From Closterium sp. NIES-65 (taxonomy: Eukaryota; Streptophyta; Zygnematophyceae; Desmidiales; Closteriaceae), in NCBI GenBank assembly GCA_948144175.1, contig CANXME010002565.1, positions 122,778 to 186,777 of the forward strand: a stretch of DNA of 64,000 nt. Direction: 5' to 3'. The position numbers and the translations under genes were made by a program. This document shows, one piece after another, positions 3,346 to 55,439 of this stretch. How positions within the stretch are numbered: position 1 is the first letter of the stretch; the number at the start of each line of letters is the position of its first letter. The notes beneath the pieces were generated by a model, which was not told the origin of the DNA, searched no databases, and saw nothing but the letters and a program-made list of their open reading frames with translations.

Positions 3346-4829
3346 TGTGATAATTTAGAAGAGAGAAGAGGACTGCACTAGCAAGAATGGGGATACAAAT
3401 AGGAAACCCTAGAAGGGTTCTACTCACTATAGAGCACCCCACTACAGGCTAGAGCATAAGATAACATTCTGACACACCCCCATAGCCAAAGTGGGGTGTA
3501 ATCAGCAGAGCAAGCAAAGCAGTACAAGCTCAGGGTGGATCACAATGTCACCACACATTCTGAGCACAAGTTCAAGAAGCAATAGTTTAAAGTTCACAAT
3601 TATGAGCAAAGCTAGTGGTAGTCACAACAGGCAAGTGAGGAGGAGGAGAGAGAGTGAGAGGAGAGGAGATAGGAGGCGACGGATGAAGCTGCAGACACAC
3701 GGGCAACAGGAGGCACACTGGCACAGCGGCTACCGGAACAACGCTCCGGAATACTGGAGTAACTGGCCCCGCGGCTAAAGTAGCAGCAGACGAGCAATGG
3801 ACCCACGGGCGGCTGGCACAGCTGGCTACGACTGGGCTACCGGAGCAACTCCCCGGAATACAGGTGCTCCTGGCGACACGACGGCAACCTCCATTCAGCT
3901 TCCCCAAACTATCCCACTCCCCCCTGGCACACACCCGCTGCTACACCGCTAGCTCCACTCCCCCTTCACCCCCCCCTTAGTACCACTCCACCAGCTCCAA
4001 CACGTCCACCCCCCCTCAGCGTCAGCTGCAGCACAGGGAGACGGAGGAGGAGGAGGAGAAGGGGAGACCACACACCCGCCACCCCCCAGGTCGCCCCTCA
4101 GGTCGCCTCGATAGGCGACGGGAAAAGGGGGGGGGGGGGGGGGGGGGGCGGTGCACGTGCCGTAGGTAGGGCGACGGGGCCGGGCCGTAGGTAGGGCGAC
4201 GAGGCCGGTACGCAGGTAGGGCGGTGGGGCCGGGGCGCAGGTAGGGCGACGGGGCCGGGGTCGGAGGTGGGGCGACGGGGCCGGGGTCGCAGGTAGGGCG
4301 ACGGGGCCGGGGCCGGGGCGCAGGTAGGGCGACGGGGCCGGGGCCGTAGGTAGGGCGACGGGGTGCGACGCGCGGGTCCCCGTCGCCCGTCGCAGCGCCT
4401 CCTGGGGGCGACGCGCCGAGTGACGGGGCAGAAACCCGTCGCGCGCCTCAGGGCGCACGGCGGGCAGAAAACCGCCGCGAGCCTAGGGGCGCACGGCGGG
4501 CAGAAAACCGCCGCGCGCCTCGGGATGCACGGCGGGCAGAAAACCGCCGCGCGCCTCGGGGCGCACGGCGGGCAGAAAAAACTGCCGCACGCCACGGGGC
4601 GTGCGGCACATAGAGTAGCAGTAGCAGTTGCAACGTAAGCAACGAGGTGGTGAGCCCACCCACAGGATCGATCCAAGGGGATCGACCTGCTCTGATAGCA
4701 TGTGATAATTTAGAAGAGAGAAGAGGACTGCACTAGCAAGAATGGGGATACAAATAGGAAACCCTAGAAGGGTTGTACTCGCTATAGAGCACCCCACTAC
4801 AGGCTAGAGCATAAGATAACATTCTGACA
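3346..4829 (-). mobile_element. Non-autonomous LTR element N1, inserted in gypsy A
   Basis: It is 1484 bp with LTRs 3346-3474 and 4701-4829 (129 bp, 2 differences) and a perfect target duplication TGCAC at 3341-3345 and 4830-4834. Read on the minus strand, the primer site TGCTATCAGAGC follows the 5' LTR. A GC-rich interior comes next, with tandem units of about 36 bp (CCGTGCGCCCCGAGGCGCG core), then a 32-base homopolymer run (G on plus, 4117-4148). The last ~170 bp resemble the 3' end of copia B, C and F. There is no gag or pol. Open frames over the repeats are compositional. Few LTR differences imply a recent insertion. Confidence 0.9.
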
Positions 4830-6417: not shown

Positions 6418-6765
6418 TCTCAGAATCCCAACCACTAGACCATTGGGATAAAAGGGCTTGTTTTAGTAGCGGGTCAGTGCGCCCATAACCCCCCAGGCAA
6501 CCGTGCCTGTAACCCTTCCCTAGGATCAATCGGGGATCACCAGTGGACCTCTGACACCCCCCCTCACTGGGATGCTCGAAGTGCACACACCGGGATTCGA
6601 ACCCGAGACCTTCGCTCTGGATACCATCTCAGAATCCCAACTACTAGACCATTGGGATAAAAGGGCTTGTTTCAGTAGCGGGTCAGTGCGCCCATAACCC
6701 CCCAGGCAACCGTGCCTGTAACCCTTCCTTAGGATCAATCGGGGATCACCAGTGGACCTCTGACA
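6418..6765 (-). mobile_element. TRIM T1, a 348-bp mini LTR element, inserted in gypsy A
   Basis: Two 139-bp LTRs (6418-6556 and 6627-6765, 3 differences) enclose a 70-bp interior. The target duplication GGCAT is perfect (6413-6417 and 6766-6770). On the minus strand the 5' LTR ends in TGGTCTAGTAGTTGGGATTC, followed by a near-canonical primer site (TGGTATCCAGAGC) and a B-box-like GGTTCGAATCC. There is no coding capacity. This is the same family as T2, T3 and T4. Confidence 0.92.
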
Positions 6766-8790: not shown

Positions 8791-11015
8791 ACGGGGCCGC
8801 GACAGGGTCGGGGCAGGGCCGGGGTCGGGGTCGAGGCAGGGCCGAAAGGGGCAGCGACGAGGCCGCAAGGGGCGGCGACGGGGCCGCTGGAGGCGGCGAC
8901 GGGGCCGATAGGGGCGGCGACGGGGCCGCTGGAGGCGGCGACGGGGCCGCTTGAGGCGGCGACGGGGCCGATAGGGGCGGCGACGGGGCCGGGAAGGGGC
9001 CGCGAGGGGCCTGAAAGGTCGGCGACGGGGCTGGTAGGGGCGGCGACGGGGCCGCTGGAGGCGGCGACGGGGCCGCGAAGGGGCCGCGAGGGGCCTGAAA
9101 GGTCGGCGACGGGGCCGGTAGGGGTGGCGACGGGGCCGTAAAAGGCGGCGACGGGGACGATAAGGGCGGCGACGGGGCCGCGAAGGGGCCTAGCGAGGGG
9201 CACGCCACGGGGCGTGCAGTAGACAGAGTAGCAGCGGAAGCAACAGGCCAGGAACGTAGTTTGCTCTGATAGCATGTCAAAATGAACGAGAATAGGAGGC
9301 TATGTAAAGCCTAGGGTTGAGGCTTAGGAAAGTACCGAGAGGAAATGCAAGCCAAAAGAGGGGTTCACTAATGAGAATAGCAAGTACAAATAGGTAAACA
9401 GCAACACAAGGAGGTGCACCACCAAACATGATGCAATATCTATACTACAACTTGTCAGAATGTTATCTTATGCTCTAGCCTGTAGTGGGGTGCTCTATAG
9501 CGAGTACAACCCTTCTAGGGTTTGCTATTTGTATCCCCATTCTTGCTAGTGCAATCCCTCTTCTTTCTTCTAAACTTTCACATGCTATCAGAGCAGGTCG
9601 ATCCCCTTGGATCGATCATGTGGGTGGGTTACCACCTCCTCGCTTCCGCTGCAACTACCTTTCACTACTGTCTGAGCCGCACGCCCCCTAGCGTGCGGCA
9701 CTTTTTCTTCCCGCCGTGCGCCCCGAGGCGCGCGGCGGTTTTCTGCACGCCGTGCGCCCCGAGGCGCGCGGCGGTTTTCTGCCCGCCGTGTGCCCCGAGG
9801 CGCGCGGCGGTTTTCTGCCCGCCGTGCGCCCCGAGGCGCGCGGCGGTTCTCTGCCCGCTGTGCGCCCCGAGGCGCGCGGCGGGCTTCTGCCCCGTCGTTC
9901 GCCACGTCGCCCTCTGGAGGCGCCGCGACGGGCGACGGGGACCCGTCGCGGCGCACCGAGGGCGCGCGCCTCGGCCCCGTCGCCCTACCTGCGCCCCGGC
10001 CCCGGCCCCGCCTGCGGCCCCTTTTCCCGTCGCCCGTCGCGGCTCCCTCGGGGGCCGCTTACCTGGGGGAGGGGGGCGAGCGCCGCCCCTTCTGCTGCCT
10101 CTCTTGGCGCCCTGGGAGGCCGCGCGTCGGTTCCCCCCCCCCCCCCCCCCCCTCCCTCGTAACCTCCCTACCCGCCATCCCGCCCTGCCTGTATTAGGGT
10201 TTGGGGAGTGGCGAGTAGGGGGTGGCGAGTATGGGGGTGGCACTTCTGCATTCCTCCCTTTGCTCCTCCTCCTCCTTTGTCTCCCACTGCTGCAGCTGTC
10301 GCTGAGGGGGGTGGATGTGTGGGAGACTGGGGTTTAGGGTTTAAGGGGGGTGCGTGGGAGTGGAGCTAGCGGTGTAGCAGCGGGTGTGTGCCAGGGGGAG
10401 TGGGATAGTTTTGGGAAGCTGTTTGGAGGTTGTCGTCGTGTCGCCAGCAGCACCTGTATTCCGGGGACTTCGTCCGGTAGCCCAGTCGTAGCCAGCTGTG
10501 CCAGCCGCCCGTGGGTCCGTTGCTCGTCTGCCGCTACTTTAGCCGCGGGGCCTGTTACTCTTGTATTCCGGGGACTTCGTCCGGTAGCCGCTGTGCTAGT
10601 CTGCCTCCTGTTGCCCGTGTGTCTGCAGCTTCAGCCGTCGCCTCCTATCTCCTCTCCTCTCACTCTCTCTCCTCCTCCTCGCTTGCCCGTTGTGACTACC
10701 ACTAGCTTTGCTCATAATTGTACCCTTTAAACTATTGCTTCTTGAACTTGTGCTCAGAATGTGTGGTGACATTGTGATCCACCCTGAGCTTGTACTGCTT
10801 TGCTTGCTCTGCTGATTACACCCCACTTTGGCTATGGGGGTGTGTCAGAATGTTATCTTATGCTCTAGCCTGTAGTGGGGTGCTCTATAGCGAGTACAAC
10901 CCTTCTAGGGTTTGCTATTTGTATCCCCATTCTTGCTAGTGCAATCCCTCTTCTCTCTTCTTAACTTTCACACAACTGCAAACGATTATATAAAATATGT
11001 AAACATATTTTGACA
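8790..11015 (-). mobile_element. GC-rich LTR element Q, minus strand, split by N2; 3' LTR not found
   Basis: Its 5' LTR lies at the right in two pieces: 9275-9452 and 10978-11015, with N2 between them. Read on minus it runs TGTCAAAATATG to CATTTTGACA, about 216 bp, followed at 9274-9263 by the primer site TGCTATCAGAGC. The interior (about 8790-9230) is tandem GC-rich units (GGCGGCGACGGGGCCG core). I see no matching 3' LTR, so the left limit is approximate. It has no coding domain. Leader structure and primer site match the N elements, but the LTR differs, so it is a separate small family. Confidence 0.6.
9453..10972 (+). mobile_element. Non-autonomous LTR element N2, inserted in the LTR of Q
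   Basis: It is 1520 bp with LTRs 9453-9582 and 10843-10972 (130 bp, 2 differences) and a perfect target duplication CAACT (9448-9452 and 10973-10977). The primer site TGCTATCAGAGC is at 9583. The interior has 5-6 units of about 36 bp at 9712-9890, a C-run of about 20 near 10133-10152, a telomere-like GGGTTTAGGGTTTAAGG near 10330, and a 3' block shared with copia B. There is no gag or pol. It looks structurally complete and recent. Confidence 0.92.
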
Positions 11016-14511: not shown

Positions 14512-14886
14512 TGTCAGAATCCAAACCACTAGACCATTGGGATAAAATGGCTTATTTCAGTAGCGCGTCAGTGCGCCCATAACCCCACAGGCGAACGCGC
14601 CTGTAACCCTCTCCAGGATCAATCGGGCATCCACAGGGCAGATCTACTGACACCCCCCCACACTGGGAGGCCCAGGACTAAGCACAGTGGTACCGGCCTA
14701 CATGTGCATACACTGGAATTCGAACCTGAGACCGCTCTGATACCATATCAGAATCCCAACCACTAGACCATTGGGATAAAAGGGCTTATTTCAGTAGCGG
14801 GTCAGTGCGCCCATAACCCCCCAGGCGAACGCGTCTGTAACCCTCTCCAGGATCAATCGGGCATCCACAGTGCAGATCTACTGACA
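14512..14886 (-). mobile_element. TRIM T2, 375 bp, in unique DNA
   Basis: It is flanked by the perfect target duplication AATCT (14507-14511 and 14887-14891). The LTRs are about 140 bp and start and end TGTCAG...CTGACA. On the minus strand the 5' LTR ends TGGTCTAGTGGTTGGGATTC, followed by TGGTATCAGAGC (exact initiator-Met primer-site match) and a slightly altered B-box-like GGTTCGAATTCC. The interior of about 95 bp ends in a G-run purine tract. Confidence 0.92.
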
Positions 14887-22640: not shown

Positions 22641-22752
22641 CCGGAGCGCGACTCGGGCTGAGCGTGCTTCGGGCAGGAAAAAAAAAACTCGATGTGGTGG
22701 GCCCTAGGCACAGTTCCCACGGGGGAACCTGCTCGATACCATGAGGAAATTA

Positions 22753-24116
22753 TGTCAGAATGTTATGTTATCTAGCCTGCAGTGGGGTGCTCCATAGCGA
22801 GTACAACCCAGTTAGGGTTTGCTATTTGTATCCAACTGCTTGCTAGTGAACCTCCTCTTTCTTCTAATTTTGTCATGCTATCAGAGCAGGTCGATCCCCT
22901 TGGATCGATCCTGTGGGTGGGTTACCACCTCCTCGCTTCCGCTGCTACTTTTTCTTCCCGCCGTGCGCCCCGAGGCGCGCGGCGGGCTTCTGCCCCGTCG
23001 TTCGCCGCGTCGCCCTCTGAAGGCGCCGCGACGGGCGACGGGGACCAGTCGCGGCCCCGCCGCCCCACTTCGCGGCCCCGCCGCCTCACGTCGCGGCCCC
23101 GCCGCCTTACGGTGCGGCCCCGCTGCCACATTTCGCGGCCCCGCCGCCCCACTTCGCGGCCCCGCCGCCCTTCTGTCGCGGCCCCGCCGCCCCACCTTCG
23201 CGGCCCCGCCGCCCTACACCTGTGGCCCCGCCGCCCTCCTTGCGCCCCGACCCCATTTCCCGTCGCCTGTCGAGGCGACCCTCGGGGGCCGCTTGCGGGC
23301 GGGCGAGCGCCGTCATCCCACCCTTCCTACCCGCCATCCCACCCTGTCTGTGTTAGGGTTTGGGGGTGGCAAGCAGGGGGTGGCGAGTATGGGGGTGTCA
23401 CTTCCTCATTCCTCCCTTTGCTCCTCCTCCTTTGTCTCCCACTGCTGCAGCTGTCGCTGAGGGGGGTGGATGAGTGGGAGACTGGGGTTTAGGGTTTAAG
23501 GGGGGGTGCCTTGGGAGTGGAGCTAGGGGTGAAACTGGGGGTGTGTGTGGGGGGTGTGGGACTGCTTGGGGAGGCTGAGAGGAGGCTGCCGTCTTGTCGT
23601 CCGCAGCACCTGTAGTCCGGGGCGCTGTCCTGGTAGCTCAGAGAGCCTGCTGCGCCTGTCGCCCGTGGGTCCGTTGCTCCTGTAGCTCGTCGTAGCCCGT
23701 GAGCCAGTTACTCCAGTAGTCCGGGGCGCTGTCCCGGTAGCCACTGTGCCAGCCGCTCCTGTAGCCCGTGTATCTGCAGCTTCAGCCGTCGTCTCCCATC
23801 TTCTCTCCTCTCACAGTCCCTCCTCCTCCTCACTTGCCCGCTGTGACTACCACTAGCTTTGCTCATAATTGTGAACTTTAAACTGTTGCTTCTTGTAATT
23901 GTGCTCAGAATGCGTGGTGACATTGTGATCCACCCTGAGCTTGTTCTGGTTTGCTTACTGTGCTGATTACACCCCACTTTGGCTATGGGGGTGTGTCAGA
24001 ATGTTATGTTATCTAGCCTGCAGTGGGGTGCTCCATAGCGAGTACAACCCAGTTAGGGTTTGCTATTTGTATCCAACTGCTTGCTAGTGAACCTCCTCTT
24101 TCTTCTAATTTTGTCA
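22753..24116 (+). mobile_element. Non-autonomous LTR element N3, inserted in the LTR of copia C
   Basis: It is 1364 bp with LTRs 22753-22875 and 23994-24116, which read identically over 123 bp. The target duplication AATTA is perfect (22748-22752 and 24117-24121). The primer site TGCTATCAGAGC is at 22876. The interior has GC-rich units (GCGGCCCCGCCGCC core), a telomere-like GGGTTTAGGGTTTAAGG near 23490, and the shared 3' block before the hairpin and LTR. There are no genes. Identical LTRs make this one of the most recent events in the window. It is a divergent subfamily relative to N1, N2 and N4. Confidence 0.93.
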
Positions 24117-24871: not shown

Positions 24872-25013
24872 TGTCAGTAGAGCTACACTGTGAGATCCCC
24901 GATCGATCCTTGGGGGGGTTACAGGCGCGGTTGCCTGGGGGGTTATGGGCGCACTGACCCGCTACTGAAACAAGCCCTTTTATCCCAATGGTCTAGTGGT
25001 TGGGATTCTGACA
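24872..25013 (+). mobile_element. TRIM T3: solo LTR, 142 bp
   Basis: A single LTR (TGTCAGTAG...TTCTGACA) is flanked by the perfect target duplication ATACG (24867-24871 and 25014-25018). It matches the T1, T2 and T4 LTRs, including the terminal TGGTCTAGTGGTTGGGATTC and the CAGGCG-CGGT-TGCCTG hairpin. This is the expected product of LTR-LTR recombination. Confidence 0.93.
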
Positions 25014-25963: not shown

Positions 25964-28900
25964 ATGCACGAGCGGGAAGCGGAGCGGCTGCTGAAGGCGG
26001 AGAGGAGGGCGGCGAGCAGCGCTCGCCAAGTCGCGCCCCCCGCTAGCCCTGCTCAACGCGGCACACAAACACCGCCCTTCTCCGGCAGTGTTGTGTCGCC
26101 ATCCGTCATCGCGCTATCGACCCCCCTCTCGCCCCCGCACGCGCCCTCACACGAACCACCGCCGCCAGCGCGCCACCTTGCTCCCTTGCACAGCCCCACT
26201 CCCGCGCACGCCGCCGCTGACGCCAGCCCGTCGCCTCGTGGCCCGCCTCATGGCGCGTCGCCCCTCGCGCCTCTCGCACAGCAGGGTGCCGGCGGAGACT
26301 CCAAATCATCGCCGTCGCGCCACGTGCAGCGCGTGTTCGTGTCGCTCATCGTGGTCTTCGCCGCGTCGCTGCTGCTCCTCTCGCAGCTCCCCTTCATCAT
26401 CTCCGTGCTGTCCCCCTTTTTGTCGCCGTTCGATATAAGCGTGGAGGAGGCGGAGCAGGTGGAGCAGGCGGGGGCGGCGCAGGTGGGCGGCGTGTGGTCG
26501 CAGCTGCGGGAGCACCGCGGCAGCCTCGCGCTGCTCTTCCTCACGCGCGGCCCCATCCCCCTCGCTCCGCTCTGGGAGAAATTCCTCCGGGTGCGTCGCT
26601 GCCTCATGCGACTCCCCCCTGCGGCCCCCCTCTTCGTGCCTCCCCCTCGTGCCTCCCCCCTCGTGCCTCCCCCCTCGTGCCTCCCCCCTCGTGCCTCCCC
26701 CCTCGTGCCTCCCCCCTCGTGCCTCCCCCCTCGTGCCTCCCCCCTCGTGCCTCCCCAATCGTGCGTCCCCCCATGCCACATGCGCCATGCCCCATGCCAC
26801 ATGCGCCATGCCCCATGCCTCATGCGCCATGCCCCATGCGCGACGCAAAAAGTGGCATGTCGATTGCATGAGCGGTACTAGGTATTCTCTTGGGATTTAT
26901 GGACGCCTTTTCCTGTCTTGCCACTCACATCACATGCATATCGCCCTCTATCGCACCGTGTCGAACCCCCTTCCCCCCCCAGCCTCCTGTACACACTCTC
27001 CCTCCCCCTCCCCCCCAAACGTCCCTTTTCACTTCCTCCCCTCCCCCTCTTCCCCTCTCCCCCCTCCACCGACCTGCTTCCCGTCCCCCTCCTTCCCCCC
27101 TTCTCCCCGCTCCCCCTCCTCCCCGCATCCCCCCCCAGGGCCACGAGGGGCGCTATGCCATATACGTGCATGCGTCCAACACGTCCTTCTCCTTCCCGCC
27201 CGGCTCCTCGCCCCTCTTCCGCGGCCGCCTCGTGCCGGGTGGAGAGGTGAGCCTTGTGCGCCATGGGATGATGGGCATGTGGGGTGATGGGCATGGGGGG
27301 TGATGGGCATGGGGGGTGATGGGCATGTGGGGTGATGGGCATGGGGGGTGATGGGCATGTGGGGTGATGGGCATGGGGGGTGATGGGCATGGGGGGTGAT
27401 GGGCATGTGGGGTGATGGGCATGTGGGGTGATGGGCATGGGGGGTGATGGGCATGGGGGGTGATGGGCATGTGGGGTGATGGGCATGGGGGGTGATGGGC
27501 ATGTGGGGTGATGGGCATGGGGGGTGATGGGCATGGGGGGTGATGGGCATGTGGGGTGATGGGCATGTGGGGTGATGGGCATGGGGGGTGATGGGCATGG
27601 GGGGTGATGGGCATGTGGGGTGATGGGCATGGGGGGTGATGGGCATGTGGGGTGATGGGCATGGGGGGTGATGGGCATGGGGGGTGATGGGCATGTGGGG
27701 TGATGGGCATGGGGGGTGATGGGCATGGGGGGTGATGGGCATGGGGGGTGGTATCAGATCAATCGGACATCAACAAGTAGCTGCCTTTCGTTGCTCTCCT
27801 CTGCGTGCCTCTGCCTGTATTCCTCTGCCTGTGTGCCTCTGCCTTTGTGCCTCTGCCTGTGTGGCTCCCGTGTGCAACCCATGCACTCTCCTGCTCGCAA
27901 CACTGCCATGCCATCTGCTCTCACGTGCACCAGGTGCGGTGGGGCAAGATGTCAATGGTGGACGCGGAGAGGTGCCTGCTGGAGGCTTTTTTTTAGGTGC
28001 CTCGAAACTAGACTCATGCCACGTGTGACTGTCCATGCGTTGCACGCGTGGCAGGTGCGGTGGGGCGAGATGTCGATGGTGGATGCGGAGAGGCGCCTGC
28101 TGGAGGCGGCGGTGCAGGACGAGGCCAACAGCTTCTTCGCGCTGCTCAGTGAGAGGTGGGGAGCGAGGTGAGAGGTGGGGGAGCGAGGTGAGAGGTGGGG
28201 AGCGAGGTGAGAGGTTGGGGAGCGAGGTGAGAGGTGGGGAGCGAGGTGGGGAGCGAGGGTGAGAGGTGGGGAGCGAGGTGAGAGGTGGGGAGCGAGGTGA
28301 GAGGTGGGGAGCGAGGTGAGAGGTGGGGAGCGAGGTGAGAGGTGGGGAGCGAGGTGAGAGGTGGGGAGCGAGGTGAGAGGTGGGGAGCGAGGTGAGAGGT
28401 GGGGAGCGAGGTGAGAGGTGGGGAGCGAGGTGAGAGGTGGGGAGCGAGGTGAGAGGTGGGGAGCGAGGTGAGAGGTGGGGAGCGAGGTGAGAGGTGGGGA
28501 GCGAGGTGAGAGGTGGGGAGCGAGGTGAGAGGTGGGGAGCGAGGTGAGAGGTGGGGAGCGAGGTGAGAGGTGGGGAGCGAGGTGAGAGGTGGGGAGCGAG
28601 GTGAGAGGTGGGGAGCGAGGTGAGAGGTGGGGAGCGAGGTGAGAGGTGGGGAGCGAGGTGAGAGGTGGGGAGCGAGGTGAGAGGTGGGGAGCGAGGTGAG
28701 AGGTGGGGAGCGAGGTGAGAGGTGGGGAGCGAGGTGAGAGGTGGGGAGCGAGGTGAGAGGTGGGGAGCGAGGTGAGAGGTGGGGAGCGAGGTGAGAGGTG
28801 GGGAGCGAGGTGAGAGGTGGGGAGCGAGGTGAGAGGTGGGGAGCGAGGTGAGAGGTGGGAGCGAGGTGAGAGGTGGGGAGCGAGGTGAGAGGTGGGGAGC

Positions 28901-31900
28901 GAGGTGAGAGGTGGGAGCGAGGTGAGAGGTGGGGAGCGAGGTGAGAGGTGGGGAGCGAGGTGAGAGGTGGGGAGCGAGGTGAGAGGTGGGGAGCGAGGTG
29001 AGAGGTGGGGAGCGAGGGTGAGAGGTGGGGAGCGAGGTGAGAGGTGTGCCCACGTGACGGGCCAGGGGGCAGGGGCGAGGGAGGGGCAATGGGTGAGGGG
29101 TGAGTTGTGGTGGGGAGGCACGATGTGTTGCTGAGGTGCATGAGTAGAGGCTTGTGTCTGTGAGGGGCGCCTTTCCTCTCATGCCAGGCATGCCTGCTGC
29201 ACCTCTCACTCCCTTGGCGTGCTTGCTTCACACTCCTGCCATCCACCCATGCACGTGCCACGTTCCAACACCAACCACCCTTGTGTTGCTCAACCGTGGC
29301 CTCTATCCCGGGGCGCAATCCCCCATTCCCGACTCTCATTCATAACGTGTTTCCCTTATATCCCACGCACTTGTGCCAGAACCCTCCCTGGGCTTACACC
29401 CAAAGCCCCCCATTTCTCTCCTGCCCCGTTCGCTGCATGCCATTTCTCTCCTGCCCTGTTCGCTGCATGCCATTTCTCTCCTGCCCCGTTCGCTGCATGC
29501 CATTTCCCCCCAAGCCCATTCCCCTGTGGCGGGCATCACCTGCATCCCTCAGTGGCCCTTTTCTCCATGCCCTCTCTAATACCCTTTCCCCCCTGCTCTT
29601 CCCGCGTGCCCATTCCCCCCACACGCCTCATACCTGGCTGGGCGGGCAACAGCTGCATACCCTTGTGGCCGTTTGACTATGTGTACAGCTACATCGCCTC
29701 CTCCTCCGCCAGCTTCGTTGACGCGTCAGTGCCGCTCCGCCCCTCCAGCCCTCTCCTCCTCCTCTTCCCTTCTGCCACCCCCTGCTGCTCTTCCTTCTCT
29801 TTTCGGCGATGTTGTGTGTATGTGTGCACATCCACTCCACTGTGAGTGTCACATGGTACGGATGTGCCTGCAAGGATGCCACATGGTTGCCCAACGGCTT
29901 GATCATGAAGCATGACGCCGCCCGCTTGTGCTGCTTCCCTGATCCGGATTCACCGCTTGTGCTGCTTCCCTGATCCGGATTCACCGCTTGTGCTGCTTCC
30001 CTGATCCGGATTCACCGCTTGTGCTGCTTCCCTGATCCGGATTCACCGCTTGTGCTGCTTCCCTGATCCGGATTCACCGCTTGTGCTGCTTCCCTGATCC
30101 GGATTCACCACTGTGTGCTCCCCCACTCCCTGTCCACCGCTGGCAGGTACGCGGACCCCTACAGCACGTCGTTCGGGCGGTACATCCCGCATATCTTCAT
30201 GCCCGTCATCCGCCGCCACCAGTTCCTCAAAGGCAACCAGGTGCGGTGCTGTGCGGCTCACAGGCAACCAGGTGCGGTGCAGTGTGGCTCACAGGCAACC
30301 AGGTGCGGTGCCACTCAAGCCAGGTTTGATAGAATGCTTATTGTCTTGTTCTACATGTACTTAGTGTACCTGTTTTCGTGTTAGGCGCAATGCACACTCA
30401 TGTATTATATTGTTGCTGTTCTTATGTGTATATCTGCGCCATGACTCCAAAGTTTTGACATTTAAAGAACTGTGTGTGCTCCTGTCATTGCCTTGCCTTG
30501 CATATCTTTCACACTCTGATTTCATTCGCATCAATGCGCATGCATGGCACGTGTTGGATGCACATCACCGAATGAACTCCCATCCCATCCCACCACATCA
30601 CACCGCGTGGCACCGCATGGAGGCAGTGGTTCATCTTGCAGCGGCGGCATGCGGAGGCGGTGGTGGGGGACACGCTGCACTACGCCAAGCACAACCTCAG
30701 CTGCGCCGTCAGTCCACCCCCTTTTTCCCTGCCCCCCTTCGTCTCTGCGTGTTACAGCCTCCTCCGTTCCGCTGCTATTCTAGATCATGCGGGCCGTGAC
30801 AACCTCTCCCTCACATGCATCTTCTGTCGCTGTCCCGTGACCAGCCCTCTTTCATGACCCTCGCATGCCCCATGCACACCTCGTCTCTCATTTTCCGTCT
30901 CCCATCCGTGTGACCCCTGCACCTGTGTGCGTGTGTGCAGTTTCGGTTGCAGTGGGGCAAGCTGTGCTGTGCGGATGAGCATTACATTCAAACCTTCTTG
31001 CATGTGGGTGTCACGCTCCACACCCCCGCTCACTTGATTCGCTCGCACCACCCATGTGCACTCTTGCAGTTGGAAAGGGAAAATCGCTCTTCTAAGAGGC
31101 CCTTTCATGCATGCATCGACCCGCTCATGCATCAACCCCCTCATGCCATCTCACCCACGCCCCACATACCATGGCCCCCCTCCCCCTGCAATGTCTCCCC
31201 TGCCACGCTCCTCCCTGCATTCTCCCCCCCACACCACGCCATGGCCTTCCCTGCCATGCTGCTGCGCAGATGACAGACCCTCGCGGCATATCGCGCTACC
31301 CCACCACGTTCACGGACTGGAGTGCCAACGACTGGCACCCCTCACTCTACCTGGGCGCCAACATGACAGACCAAGTCATCACCACCATCAAGGTCCCCTC
31401 ACTCTCTGCCTGCCGCCTGTCACGGACACGCCTCCTGTGCTCTCTGCTGCTTACATGTCCACCCCCTCTCGCAGCCTGCAGTAAATGCTATGTGTCGCTT
31501 GCCATCTGCTGTGTCATCGATCCATCTCCCTGGAATTCCAATGCCCTCAACGTGCCATCTCCCTGGAATTCCAATGCCCTCAACGTGCCATCTCCCCTCG
31601 CCACTGCCCTGCGTCCTCCTCTCTCCCGGCACGCCTGCGGCAGACGGCAAGGCAGTTCATCACCTATCGCTCTTTCTGGCAGGACTTCAAGTCCAACTAC
31701 TCCCATGTGCGTGCCGTTCCCTTGTATGCGTGTGCGTGTGTTGCCTTTGTATGTATGTGCGTGTGTGTGTGTGCCGTTCCTTTGTTGGCATCATGCATGT
31801 CTTGTTGGCATCATGCATGTCTTGTTGGCATCATGCATGTCTTGTTGGCATCATGCATGTCTTGTTGGCATCATGCATGTGCGTGCAGTGCACCAATGGT

Positions 31901-41622: not shown

Positions 41623-44600
41623 TGTGAGGATCTAGGATCGAGCTCAGAAAAGAGAATGAGAATTGAGTCGAATTGAATGATCACCTGGGTACAACACGAG
41701 GCTATATATAGGCTCGACACAAGGCCCCGTAACCAGGTGTTACGCGAAGGTTCCGCGGGTCGCGTAGCGTCCCGAACAGATCCTTACCGAATTCGGTAGA
41801 AGGCAATTCGGTGGCAACCGAAAAGGCCAGAATTCGGTGCACGTAACCTAGCTCGATGCTATAACTATAATAAAATATAGGAAAGCACCTAGCCTAGGAA
41901 ATCAAGCAATTCATGCATGCATATGATTATCCTATGCTAGAAATAGCATGATAAAGTAAAGGCAAGCAAATATAGCTGGCAATAAGCCGTCGTACTCTCA
42001 CACGTCCCCCCCTCAAAGCTGGGTGGCGTGAGAAACACCCTGCTTGACAAGATAGTCCTTGAGAGCACGGCGTGCGTTGCCCATATCAGCTTCTGCAACC
42101 CAACTGTCCTCAGTGGGGTCGTATCCCTTCCAGCGTATCAGGAACTCGAGGGTCTTGCCGCCGCGGCGCCGATGAGAGAGAACGCACTCGATCTCGTACT
42201 CGGGTTCATCCTGCACAAGAACAGGCGGAGGTGGCGGGTAGCTGCCGTCCCTGGAACTGTTGGTTGGGGTCCTTGTAGGGTTTCAGTAGCTTCACATGGA
42301 AAGCATTGTGAAGCTTCCAAGTAGTAGGTAAGCGCAAGTGGAATGTAACTGGTGTCACCTGTGCCTCTACGAGAAAAGGACCACAGAAGCGAGGCCGGAG
42401 TTTGGGTGGGAGGTGAGACAGGTTCAAGTTGCGCGTGTCAAGAAGCACCTGATCTCCGACTGCTACTGAGTGATCACGTCGCTGACGATCGGCATACTGC
42501 TTCTGGGAGGTCTGCATCGTGGTGAGTCGTCGCCGAGTCTTTTCCCATAGCTGCTGCATGGTGGTGACGAAGTCATGTGCGGCTTGGACGTGTGCCGGTG
42601 TGGTTGGCTTCTGTGGTGTAAGTGGAACCCGTCCGTAACACAGGAAGAAAGGAGTTTTCCCTGTGGCCGCATGTGATGCGTTATTGTAAGTGAACTCTAG
42701 GGTCGGTAACTGTGTGTCCCAGTGGTTGACGTCGTCCTTGCAAGCTGTGCGCAGTAACTGTTCAACCACTTGATTGAGTCGCTCGGTCTGTCCGTTAGTC
42801 TGTGGGTGGTATGCTGAGGACATCGCAAGTTTGGTCCCTAATAATCCCATGAGCTCCTTCCAGAACTTACTCATGAATTTGGGGTCTTTGTCTGAGATGA
42901 GTGTAGCGGGGATGCCGTGGATGGTGATGATGCGGTCGAAGAAGAGGCGAGCAGTTGCTTCAGCTGTACCTGTGGCGTTGGTCGGTATGAAGTGACCCAT
43001 TTTGGAGAACTTATCGATGACTACGAGGATGGAATCGTGCCCCCGTGAGGTCGAAGGAAGTCCTGTGATAAAGTCGAGGCTAACGACCTGCCATGGCTGC
43101 TCCGGTACGGGTAGAGGCTGAAGTAACCCTGCTTTTTTTTGCTTGCTAGTCTTCATCCGCTGGCACGTGTCGCAAGAGGTGACTAACTGCTGCACGTCTA
43201 CTGCCATCCCGGGCCAGTAGTAATACTTTGCTATCCCTGCTAACGTCTTGTTGCTCCCGAAATGTCCCGCGTATGGTACATCGTGAAACTCCTCCAATAG
43301 GATCTGCCGTAGCGGGGCGTAATTCGGTACCCAAATCTTTCCTAAACCCTTCCTTATAGCTAAGTCTTTCTCCCACTGTAACAACTTCTTGGTCTGTGCT
43401 GTAGCGATCTCTGCGTCCACGGAGTACCCATGTTGGAATAGACCCTTGAGCAGAGGGTTCATCCCGTCGAGCTGGATGCCTGCTACATGTCCGGGGCGGC
43501 TCAATGCGTCTGCTTTGATGTGTAGCCCGGGCTTGTAAACGATGTCGTAGTGGAAGTGAGTTTCCAGGAAGTCCACCCACCGCACCTGTCGTCGTGAGAG
43601 CGTCGGCTGCGACCTCAGGTATTTGAGACTGCAGTGGTCAGTATAGACTGTAGTCTTGGCTCCCTCTAGGTAACACCTCCACGCCTTGAAGGCTATGACT
43701 ATCGCTAAGGCTTCCTTGTCGTGAATGGGGTAGCTTAGTTCTGCTCCGGGTAGTTTCTTACTGAGGTAGGCGATAGGCTGTAAACCGCGTCCGTGATCCT
43801 GCATCAGTACTGCTCCGACTGCTTGGTCACTAGCCTCTACTTCCACCACGTAGTCCTTGTCTGGATCCAGCAAGATGAGTACTGGCGCTATAGTCAGTGC
43901 TGTCTGTAGCTGCTCCATGGCTTGCTGATGAGGGGTATCCCATTTGTAGGGCGTATCCTTTTCAGTAGTTCGGTCAGTGGCGCTGCTATCTTAGCGTACT
44001 GCGGCACGAACCTGTTGTAGTAGTTGGCAAAGCCTAGGAACTACTGCAACTCCTTCACGTTCTCCGGTACTTTCCACTTCTTGACGACTTCGATTTTCCG
44101 CGGGTCCACGTGTACGCCCTCGGCACTCACCATGTGCCTGAGAAACTGCACCTTCTTCAGGGCGAAGTCGCTCTTCGACAGCTTCACGTAGAACTTGTTT
44201 TTCCGCAGGATCTCGAACACCTTCCGTAGATGCTCCACGTGCTCCTTCATGTTCTTGGAGTAGATGAGAATGTCGTCCAGGTACACCACCACGCATTCGT
44301 CCAGCAGGGGTCGTAAGATGTGATTCATCTCCGCCTGAAACGTTGCTGGTGCGTTGCAGAGTCCGAACGGCATCACCAAGTATTCGTAGGAGCCGTATCT
44401 GGTACGGAACGCCATCTTGTGGATCGAGTTGTCCGCCATCTTGATCTGCCAGTAACCCGACCGTAGGTGCAGCTTCGAGAAGACTGTTGTCAGAACATTA
44501 TAGCTTGTGCTTTTGTGTAGGTTGTAGTGGGGTAGCCCACATGGGGTACAACCCAATTAGGGTTAGTACTTGTACCCAACAGTTTCATAGTTGATTCATT

Positions 44601-44869
44601 CTCGTTTCTTCTCATGGTATCGAGCAGTTTCCCTCGTGGGAACTGTTCCTAGGGCCCACCAAAACGATATTTTATTTTTCCTGCCCGGGAGCGCACTTTG
44701 CTTAGGCCCGAGTCGCGCCTCGTGTGCCCTCTCTACCGTCGCGCCCGTCCTAGGCCTCCTTCGGCCCCGTCGTGTCGCCCCTAGCGGCCTCCCTCGCGCC
44801 GCCCTTACTCGGCCCGTCGCCGCCCCTTCGCGGCCTGACGCCGCCCTACGCGGCCCGTCGCCACCCTCA

Positions 44870-52300: not shown

Positions 52301-53498
52301 TGTGATCCACCCAGAGCTTGCTCTGCTTTGCTTTGCTTGACTGGTCTTGTGACGGCTTGTTCTCCCCCACTTTGCCTATGGGGGTGTGTCAGAACATTAT
52401 AGCTTGTGCTTTTGTCTAGGCTGTAGTGGGGTAGCCCACATGGGGTACAACCCAATTAGGGTTAGTACCTGTACCCAACTGTTTCATAGTTGATTCATTC
52501 CCGTTTCTTCTCAACTGTTGCACCACGTAGTTGGTCTAGTACGTCGTCGATGCGCGGAATGGGGTATTTGTTTTTAACTCTCTGTTGTTCAGTGCGCGGT
52601 CGTCGATGCTTATCCGTAGACTGCCGTCTGGTTTTGGAGTGAAGAGAACTGGTGCACCGTAGGGAGAGGTGGATGGGCGGATCAGTTGTCTGTCCAGTAG
52701 ATACTCTATCTGTTTTTTCATGTCTGTCAGTTCAGTCGGACTCAGTCGGTATGGTGCATGTGAGACGGGTTTCGCACCTGGTTCCTCCACGATCTCGTGC
52801 TCGTGGGTGCGTGCTGGAGGTATGCCTGCAGGTAGGATCGTCGGGCATTATATCCTCGTATTGCTCCAAGACCTCCTTTACTACTGCAAGTAGCTCGGAA
52901 CTCAGCTTCTCCTCCTCTGCTGCTGCCATAACCAGTGCTAGGTAACCCGTGTTACTCTCGTTCACCGTCTGTTCGAACCGTGCCAGTGTCGTTTCAGGTA
53001 CGTCCCCTGTATCCGTCCAGCTTTGCAGTGCTATCCGCTTCCCGCTGTTGTAGATGCACACCTTGCTGTTGACCCAATCGATCTCGGGGTTGAAACCGCT
53101 TCAGGAAATCTCGCCCCAAGATAAAATCTAATCCTTTGATGTTGGTGACTGGTAGCTTCGGCTTCCACCTCAATGCACCTATATGCAGTTGCAGTGATGC
53201 TTTGCCGTGGATAGGAAGCTTCGTATTGTCCACCATGGTTGCTGAAAACTGGGTCTCTTCGCCTTCTCTCCAATTTTCTCCAATGCTCCGCGGTCACACA
53301 CCGAGTGAGATGCACCGCTGTCCACCAGTGCCTGGAGGCGTCGCCCATTGCATAACACCTCGAGGAGTAGTGATTTCTGCTGCGCTGAGTAGCCAAAGAG
53401 GGTCTCGTTAATAGGATCATAGGGTACATCAAACTTAATACCTTCCCTTTTTCCTATACCCGACTCAGCGCTTTCCAATTTCACCTGAGGGTAGGAGG

Positions 53499-53874
53499 TG
53501 TCAGTAGATCTGCACTGTGGATGCCCGATTGATCCTGGAGAGGGTTACAGGCGCGTTCGCCTGGGGGGTTATGGGCGCACTGACCCGCTACTGAAACAAG
53601 CCCTTGTTATCCCAATGGTCTAGTGGTTGGGATTCTGAGATGGTATCAGAGCGGTCTCGGGTTCGATTCCCGGTGCATGCACATGTAGGCCGTTGCCGCT
53701 GTGCTTAGTGCTGGGCCTCCCAGTGTGGGGGGGTGTCAGTAGATCTGCACTGTGGATGCCCGATTGATCCTGGAGAGGGTTACAGGCGCGTTCGCTTGGG
53801 GGGTTATGGGCGCACTGACCCGCTACTGAAACAAGCCCTTGTATCCCAATGGTCTAGTGGTTGGGATTCTGACA
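53499..53874 (+). mobile_element. TRIM T4, 376 bp, inserted in gypsy E
   Basis: LTRs are 53499-53640 and 53734-53874 with a 93-bp interior. The target duplication GGAGG is perfect (53494-53498 and 53875-53879). The primer site TGGTATCAGAGC at 53641 is an exact initiator-Met match, and a G-run precedes the 3' LTR. There are no genes. It is the best-preserved copy for the tRNA-like junction described at 53612-53677. Confidence 0.95.
53612..53677 (+). promoter_or_regulatory. tRNA-Glu-like Pol III promoter candidate across the TRIM LTR/primer-site junction
   Basis: The A-box-like TGGTCTAGTGGTTGGGATTC (53616-53635) ends the 5' LTR. B-box GGTTCGATTCC (53660-53670), within CTCGGGTTCGATTCCCGG, follows the primer site. 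The order and spacing match the D-arm and T-arm of a eukaryotic tRNA-Glu gene as I recall it, with the anticodon arm replaced by the primer site. Acceptor-stem pairing is not kept, so it is not a functional tRNA. Promoter activity is an inference. Confidence 0.6.
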
Positions 53875-55439
53875 GGAGGATTTTTCCGAGGCTTGTATAA
53901 TTTCTCCTGAGCCTGGATGTCTCCTCTAAGCCTTGGCAGCTATGTAGGCTTCACCTGTGGGCAACGGGGAGCCTTCAGACTGTGCTGCGGGGAGAGAATA
54001 TTTACGCCACGGAACGCACGACCCTTTTCTACGCTCCGTAGTACTTTGCCCAATTTCCAGGTACCTGAATAATTTCTAAAGGCTTTTTCTTGGCCTCTAA
54101 ACCTCCCCTGAATTTTTTGAAGGCTTGAAAACCACGAGAAGCAATATTCTTCGTTAGAGTATCTTTATAGGATACTTTTAAACGAATTCTTACTTTCGTG
54201 GGTGTTAAGCTGGAGTTTCGCGGGTCTGGGCAGAGTCTTTTTTCGCGGAGCCTCCATTCGCCTCGGCGATTTCCCCTGATGCCGGGCCGGTCATGACGTT
54301 TTAGATTCGCGCCATCATTTTCTCCTTTTTTCACCCGCTCCGAAGTCGCCACGTCGTCGCCTTTTCCTACTTTTCGGATCTTTACGCGATCGCCAGGTCG
54401 ATCCGCGGCTACTGGCGATTCCCGTTTTTTTACTTTGGGGGTGCTCCACTGTTTCCGTCCCGGAGTGCCGCACGTGCTTCTTCATTTTGTAGCACGACAA
54501 AAACTGATGTCCTGCTGCGCCGCAAATTCGCATTTTGTCGGCTGCTGCTTCGCGTCGTATTTGTCGATATCCATCGGTTCGGCGAACGTGGGGGGTGCCG
54601 ATCGCTCCGTGCCGAATGTACGGTTCAGCGTGAAACGTCGTGTTTCGGGTTGACCTCGAGTCAGCGCGTCGTATCGCTCGGCAGCAACGCACGATGTCTC
54701 TGTAGCTGTTGTAATTCGCCGCAATCACCTGCCACCGAATCTCCATTTTTAACCCTTCGGTGTACGCCTGGAGTTTTCGCCTTCGGTCAGGTCGGTGATG
54801 CGGTTGAACAGTAACTCCATCTGCTGCGTGTACTGTGTTACACTACTGTATTGCTTGTGTCGGTGTATCTGTTGTCGCGCCATGTAGGTTGTATTAATTG
54901 GTTCGAAACGCTCGATTAAAATCTGACCGAAACTGCTGCCACGTTTTCTCACCGCGGGCTACGTCGGTGTAGTAAATCCATTCGAGAGCCGGACCACGTA
55001 ACAGTGTCGCTGTGAGCCGAATCCTTGCTGCGTCGTGTTGCGGGGTCGAACAGCCAATGGCCTCGAAGTAAATTTCGAGGGTGGCCACGAATGACCGGAC
55101 ATCGGATCCCTTCGCACTTGGATCGAACGCCTCCGGGAGCCTCGGTCGTGCTGCTTCGAGGTTCGGCGACAGTGGTGCCATTTGTCCGTGAAATGTCGGT
55201 GTCGCCACTGCTGCTGGAGTTGTCGGTGCTGCAGTCGCTGCGGTTGCTGCTGCTGCGGGTGGCGAACCCTGGTTGGCTTGTCAGAAAAGCCTCGAGTCGA
55301 CGAAGCGTCGCCTGCGTCTGCTCCATGTCGGTGCGGAGGCTCGCGATGTCGCTCGTAGTCGCGTAGTTGTTGCCTTGGCTCTCCATGCCTGACATCAACG
55401 CGTCCGAAAAAACCGAATCGAGGGGGAACGAAAAACACG

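Follow-up and report, generated by a model that had tools for sequence, protein, structure and literature searches.

The stretch of Closterium sp. NIES-65 DNA analysed here (the window; 64,000 nucleotides (nt)) contains an intact TRIM of 376 nt, T4, at 53499–53874 on the forward strand. Its 5′ LTR (53499–53640; TGTCAG...TTCTGAGA) and 3′ LTR (53734–53874; TGTCAG...TTCTGACA) are 98.6% identical and are flanked by a 5-nt target duplication, GGAGG, at 53494–53498 upstream and 53875–53879 downstream. Between them lie a primer-binding site, TGGTATCAGAGC (53641–53652), which is the complement of an initiator-Met (iMet)-type tRNA 3′ end plus CCA, and a polypurine tract, GTGGGGGGG (53725–53733). Only three open reading frames of at least 30 amino acids overlap the element, each 34–55 amino acids long. 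T4 therefore has what defines a TRIM: two LTRs, a length below 1 kb, a primer site, a polypurine tract and no coding region for mobilization. The element and its flanks recur in three contigs (C2267, C396 and C57; loci L001, L002 and L003) at 99.4–99.97% identity, which places T4 within a duplicated or allelic segment (a segmental duplication or haplotype copies).

The junction between the 5′ LTR and the internal region has an unusual composition. Near its end, the LTR forms a hairpin (53609–53633), supported by folding and by covariation across the genome, in which a perfect 7-bp stem, ATCCCAA/TTGGGAT, encloses the loop TGGTCTAGTGG (53616–53626), an exact match to the A-box consensus. Beyond the primer site, a spacer, GGTCTCG (53653–53659), which reads GGTTTCG in the iMet complement and may lengthen the primer site by pairing with iMet, leads to a B box, GGTTCGATTCC (53660–53670). 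This box starts 44 nt after the start of the A box, lies outside the LTR and is part of a T-arm-like sequence, CGGGTTCGATTCCCGG (53658–53673). An earlier note on this DNA had put TGGTCTAGTGGTTGGGATTC at the LTR end and CTCGGGTTCGATTCCCGG after an iMet-type primer site, 58 nt in total from the A-box start; a sequence check confirmed this arrangement, with TGGTCTAGTGGTTGGGATTC at 53616–53635 and CTCGGGTTCGATTCCCGG ending at 53673. The 3′ LTR carries a second A box (53850–53860) with no B box downstream, and hence no complete promoter.

Further copies of the family are present in the window. T1 (6418–6765, reverse strand; target duplication ATGCC) belongs to a GAA-spacer subfamily and has the B box GGTTCGAATCC, one change in its 5′ A box and one extra base in the primer site. 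T2 (14512–14886, reverse strand; target duplication AGATT) has a changed B box, GGTTCGAATTC, and a solo LTR (24872–25013, forward strand; target duplication ATACG) carries the A box and hairpin and no B box. All three have the LTR end of T4, and T1 and T2 share its whole layout, as the earlier note had described for both, including the altered B box of T2. A systematic difference between 5′ and 3′ LTR ends (GAGA/GACA, as in T4) was considered and dropped, because both GA and CA are found at either end.

We next asked how often such a pair of boxes would arise by chance, using the consensus sequences TRGYNNANNNG (A box) and GGTTCGANTCC (B box). T4 has only two exact A boxes, at 53616 and 53850, one per LTR, and one exact B box, at 53660. 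The B box follows the first A box at a distance of 44 nt, the spacing of tRNA genes; in the GAA-spacer subfamily the spacing is 47, as counted from the genome match rows. An exact A box and an exact B box 30–80 nt apart were found in none of 5,000 dinucleotide-shuffled versions of T4, in 3 when one B-box mismatch was allowed and in 47 when two were. In the rest of the window, with TRIM copies masked and both strands searched, there was no A/B pair with zero or one B-box mismatch, and one pair with two. At up to three mismatches the LTR motif matched the window seven times (0.01 expected), and the B box alone five times, which is chance level (5.5 expected). Across the genome (874 Mb), TGGTATCAGAGC with GGTTCGANTCC no more than 20 nt downstream has 3,258 exact matches and the reversed control has none, and there are 8,126 LTR A-box/hairpin cores (7,680 plus 446). 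The central observation of the earlier note, a TRIM family with A and B boxes placed at tRNA-gene spacing over the LTR/primer-site junction, is thus far above chance and holds across subfamilies.

A reading of the junction as a tRNA gene with a cloverleaf and anticodon arm was rejected: ARAGORN predicted no tRNA genes in the window, and Rfam at gathering scores gave no tRNA or 5S rRNA match there. In a permissive Rfam scan of 53560–53760, the only tRNA-clan match listed was a tmRNA piece at 53658–53672 (9.7 bits, E 0.031; the tool did not list two weaker matches of the same clan), which on its sequence is a T-arm-like piece and not a tRNA. For annotators this is a warning that a match to the A and B boxes at the border of an LTR does not have to mark a tRNA gene or a SINE. 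A genome-wide Rfam search for tRNAs, in which 63 of 18,457 candidates were scored and contigs recurred, was not used in our conclusions.

The earlier note had proposed that the junction mimics tRNA-Glu. Six host tRNA-Glu(CTC) genes have the A-box region TAGTCTAGTCGGTTAGG and the B box GGTTCAAGTCC, or near variants, whereas a host tRNA-Gly(GCC) gene contains TGGTCTAGTGGT and CGGGTTCGATTCCCGG letter for letter, so that its T-arm agrees with T4 at 16 of 16 positions. The alignment to tRNA-Glu(CTC) that the note had suggested scored 17.0, above the best of 2,000 mononucleotide shuffles (14.0), and that to tRNA-Gly(GCC) scored 23.5 (best shuffle, 13.0). tRNA-Glu was accordingly discarded as the template in favour of tRNA-Gly(GCC), the better of the two species compared out of a genomic set that also includes Glu(TTC), Asp and others. 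The near-identity to tRNA-Glu stated in the note is explained in part by the pairing of TTGGGAT with ATCCCAA in the hairpin, and this stem pairing also makes TTGGGAT unlike a tRNA D-arm. Outside the boxes and the T-arm the similarity to tRNA is weak, with nothing clear between the boxes, which makes descent from a tRNA gene no more than a possibility. The iMet-type 3′ ends of the host read GCTCTGATA, and the iMet-type and tRNA-Glu genes of this genome are presumably of plant type, judging by their appearance.

Conservation was assessed in copies picked without reference to the boxes, using the polypurine tract plus the LTR start as an anchor (3,216 matches, of which the first 20 of 100 listed were used). 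These 20 loci were aligned to T4 together with T1 and T2, giving a set of 23 rows in which two are neighbouring units (L094 and L095) and four with a foreign 5′ LTR (L093, L097, L098 and L110) were retained. A change was counted as recurrent when one alternative letter appeared in at least four rows. No recurrent change was found in the A box (0/11 positions), primer site (0/12), spacer (0/7) or 3′ stem (0/7); the 5′ stem had one (1/7), caused by the four foreign-LTR rows, and the LTR end (1/7) and B box (1/11) had one each. Between the B box and the polypurine tract, 35 of 50 positions changed recurrently, gaps counted, as did 3 of 20 in the tract region, two of the latter lying where the compared stretch ends. 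In the B box, position 53667 alone changes recurrently (19 A, 3 T, 1 G); it corresponds to the degenerate N of GGTTCGANTCC. All other B-box changes are non-recurrent. An intact B box is present in 16 of the 23 rows, in 13 of 23 copies of a broader set that includes truncated ones and in 12 of 19 of the best-matching set; better retention in single inserted copies was not seen in the first two of these sets. Neighbouring TRIM units with shared LTRs were observed at L094/L095 (C10:175877–176538), L018 and L012, and the primer site of L094 is shortened to GGTATCAGCGAAGG.

Variation within the LTR was followed in 74 LTRs: 53 from loci picked by primer site and B box (L062–L091), 13 from L092–L111, 5 from the window and 3 from L031, a locus found through its A box. 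Recurrently variable columns made up 16 of 54 in columns 7–60, 4 of 34 in 61–94, 4 of 11 in 95–105 and 2 of 34 in 106–139. The last segment runs from the T run to TTCTGA, and its two variable columns, 116 and 128, pair with each other. Columns 61–94 (GCCTGGGGGGTTATGGGCGCACTGACCCGCTACT; 53559–53592 in T4), upstream of the T run, are nearly as conserved and contain no known motif. The conservation argument for a promoter is slightly weaker because these motif-free columns are nearly as quiet as the A-box segment, and it is with this limit that the boxes are taken to be kept in source elements, with decay confined to single copies after insertion.

The hairpin at the LTR end shows compensatory change. 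Where stem position 116 is G, its partner was C in 68 and T (a G–U pair) in 32 of the 100 listed of 446 copies, and where it is A, the partner was C in 1 of the 100 listed of 7,680, both counted by eye. The corresponding Fisher test (P = 5e-27) treats rows as independent and is overstated, as the copies are related. Compensated copies occur in both length classes (LTR spacings of 208–209 and 234 nt); L083 has two compensated pairs, CCTAG/CTAGG, and L031 has one uncompensated pair. The pattern suggests that the hairpin is probably a real structure. As the covarying hairpin has the A box for its loop, conservation of the box alone is no proof of Pol III use.

A run of T residues precedes the hairpin in most copies. 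TTTT lies directly before it (1 nt off in one case) in 71 of the 74 LTRs, a set not picked by whole-element similarity, and in 53 of 62 LTRs of the set best matching T4, the run being broken in the other 9. Among 66 hairpin-to-hairpin units, TTTT falls within the 9 nt that precede the 3′ hairpin in 58 and elsewhere downstream of the A box in 2. When a 225-nt stretch of T2, ending within the T run of that copy, was shuffled 20,000 times by mononucleotides, 190 shuffles gave a single T run so placed. T4 itself reads TTGT at this site in both LTRs, so that the proposed terminator in its 3′ LTR (53839–53842) is broken. Some insertions closely related to T4 also carry TTGT in both LTRs, which indicates that sources without the T run have moved. 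Judged from these copies, TTGT in T4 and its kin would count against a strict need for a T-run terminator.

Several described elements resemble this family. Helenus is a TRIM with tRNA-derived sequence, including boxes A and B, in its LTR (Kojima 2024, PMC10886601). It is described as having conserved boxes, up to thousands of copies and 5-nt duplications in fungi and plants; in fungi it is said to be mobilized by Copia, and a Selaginella family has an LTR of 120 nt and an internal region of 85 nt (PMC10886601). The T4 family is likewise a TRIM with a short LTR pair, a primer site, a polypurine tract, 5-nt duplications and A and B boxes. Compared by description only, it differs in having its A box within the LTR and its B box internally, 19 nt past the LTR end. 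Both boxes of Helenus are described as lying inside the LTR; the sole exact B box of T4 is at 53660, and because it is internal, the LTR alone is no promoter. The same paper proposes the class TRIMp3 for tRNA-promoter TRIMs such as Helenus, with a tRNA-like sequence inside the LTR (PMC10886601). T4 shares with TRIMp3 a Pol III-type promoter, predicted here from sequence, and has A and B boxes at tRNA-gene spacing (44 nt), but its promoter would be split across the LTR border. Cassandra is described as carrying a 5S-type promoter inside the LTR and a Met primer site, and its transcript is said to run from the 5′ LTR to the 3′ LTR, giving a repeat of 18 bp (PMC10853983; PMC10886601). The T4 family is also a TRIM with a Met primer site and a putative small-RNA-gene promoter, with a shorter terminal repeat proposed, but its LTR contains no 5S rRNA sequence, and Rfam gave no such match at gathering score in the window. 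The earlier note was therefore right to call this a different solution from that of Cassandra, although tRNA-promoter TRIMs (Helenus) had already been published in 2024. tRNA-derived SINEs (SINE2) have tRNA-type A and B boxes as T4 does, whereas T4 has LTRs and a primer site; SINEs are described as having neither LTRs nor an LTR primer site and as depending on non-LTR retrotransposons (PMC10886601). The main text of Gao 2016 (PMC4717578) makes no mention of Pol III, polymerase III or tRNA, and no promoter split across an LTR and an internal region was found in the literature searched, supplements and subscription papers excluded.

Taken together, these observations lead us to favour, with somewhat better than even confidence, a model in which the TRIM is driven by a type 2, tRNA-gene-like Pol III promoter split across the LTR border. 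The two halves would be the A box at the LTR 3′ end and the B box just beyond the primer site, both bound by TFIIIC, so that the whole promoter would exist only in the 5′ LTR plus internal region, and the 3′ LTR and solo LTRs would have the A box alone. Pol III starts roughly 8–18 nt upstream of the A box. Here, transcription would begin near ...AAGCCCTTTTATCCC, pass through the primer site, internal region and U3, and stop at the equivalent site, CCCTTTT, of the 3′ LTR. A short R repeat at both transcript ends would permit strand transfer, and reverse transcription would be primed by tRNA-iMet at the observed primer site. The A box would double as the loop of an RNA hairpin beside the primer site, the hairpin itself being conserved. 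We hold the model in its full detail, with a promoter at the 5′ end only, 3′ and solo LTRs silent by design, a T run 8–11 nt upstream of the A box that doubles as start region and, within the 3′ LTR, terminator, an R of ~4–12 nt and an A-box-loop U5 hairpin, at slightly less than even confidence.

In LTR elements both repeats carry the same promoter. If the split is true, only the upstream copy would be active, solo LTRs would be promoterless, and the family would be a tRNA-promoter TRIM with an architecture unlike that described for Helenus. A split promoter, as a variant of tRNA-promoter TRIMs (TRIMp3), appears the most likely mechanism, and with similar copies in the thousands, use of Pol III is open to direct testing.

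A serious rival to the split promoter is that the junction is kept for RNA structure and priming, with transcription by Pol II. The LTR-end hairpin would then be a U5 stem, and the sequence after the primer site would pair further into the T-arm of the primer tRNA, the complement of which resembles a B box. The strong covariation of the stem, with L083 doubly compensated, is what such a role would predict. In addition, host iMet-like 3′ ends read GATCGAAACCTCGCTCTGATA, with a complement that continues as GAGGTTTCGATC, close to the spacer GAAGGTCTCG, and in another LTR family of the window AGGTCGATCC follows the primer site at three of the four TGCTATCAGAGC places shown. However, inspection by eye showed no evident partner in iMet for the A-box loop, the B box matches the tRNA T-arm itself (16/16, tRNA-Gly), and its sole recurrent change, at a position that is degenerate for Pol III, would alter the pairing. 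A stem alone would also leave the 44-nt spacing and the exact A-box loop unexplained, and no B box was seen by eye at this place in six other LTR elements with similar primer sites (the four TGCTATCAGAGC places, one Copia element of the window and one long element). We consider this explanation unlikely on present evidence.

Two further explanations concern the origin of the boxes. They might be unused fossils, left by the capture of a tRNA gene or a tRNA-derived SINE at the border of the LTR, as the identity of TGGTCTAGTGGT and CGGGTTCGATTCCCGG to a host tRNA-Gly(GCC) gene and the loss of the B box from inserted copies (16/23 intact) would suggest. Yet the B box is kept save for its N and single changes while 35 of 50 mid-internal positions vary recurrently, and there is no clear tRNA similarity between the boxes; we regard a fossil as improbable. 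A chance resemblance in an ordinary Pol II TRIM gains some weight from the post hoc nature of the observation, the loose A-box consensus, the nearly equal conservation of a motif-free LTR segment and the chance-level count of the B box alone at three mismatches in the window. With the exact pair absent from all 5,000 shuffles and the boxes kept across subfamilies, coincidence seems very improbable.

The proteins that would mobilize a split-promoter TRIM would act in trans and are probably of Copia type, as suggested by the 5-nt duplications and by chimeras joined at the primer site. Such chimeras were found at 5 of the 30 loci picked by primer site and B box (L063, L067, L068, L077 and L086), in each of which a 5′ LTR or LTR end of foreign origin meets the TRIM interior at the primer site; some run on into a second primer site and internal sequence like that of a long element. 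One of the chimeric ends, CATTCCTCATTTCTTCACA, also terminates the LTRs of a long element, as shown by several pairs ~7 kb apart; the primer site of this element, TGGTATAGAGC, has no B box after it. This long element shares GGGCCCACC after the primer site with the Copia element of the window (LTRs at 44488–44614 and 52387–52513, with RVT_2 and rve domains between them). The exact end of the chimeric LTR without an A box occurs four times, on two contigs. This count speaks for the split promoter, and a thriving lineage of A-box-less LTRs was rejected on it. Among the 100 listed of 208 LTR-end matches, most of the others read ATCATTCC..., and several are paired ~6.5–8.5 kb apart, identifying the LTR end of the long element. 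The primer-site junctions would fit intermolecular second-strand transfer in mixed particles, and template switching has been described in plant LTR elements (PMC1950507).

Another LTR family of the window (9453–9594, 22750–22887 and 4689–4829) has the primer site TGCTATCAGAGC followed by a palindrome, AGGTCGATCCCCTTGGATCGATC. The window also contains minisatellites at 27152–27855 and 28087–28935, with units of 16 nt and 19 nt.
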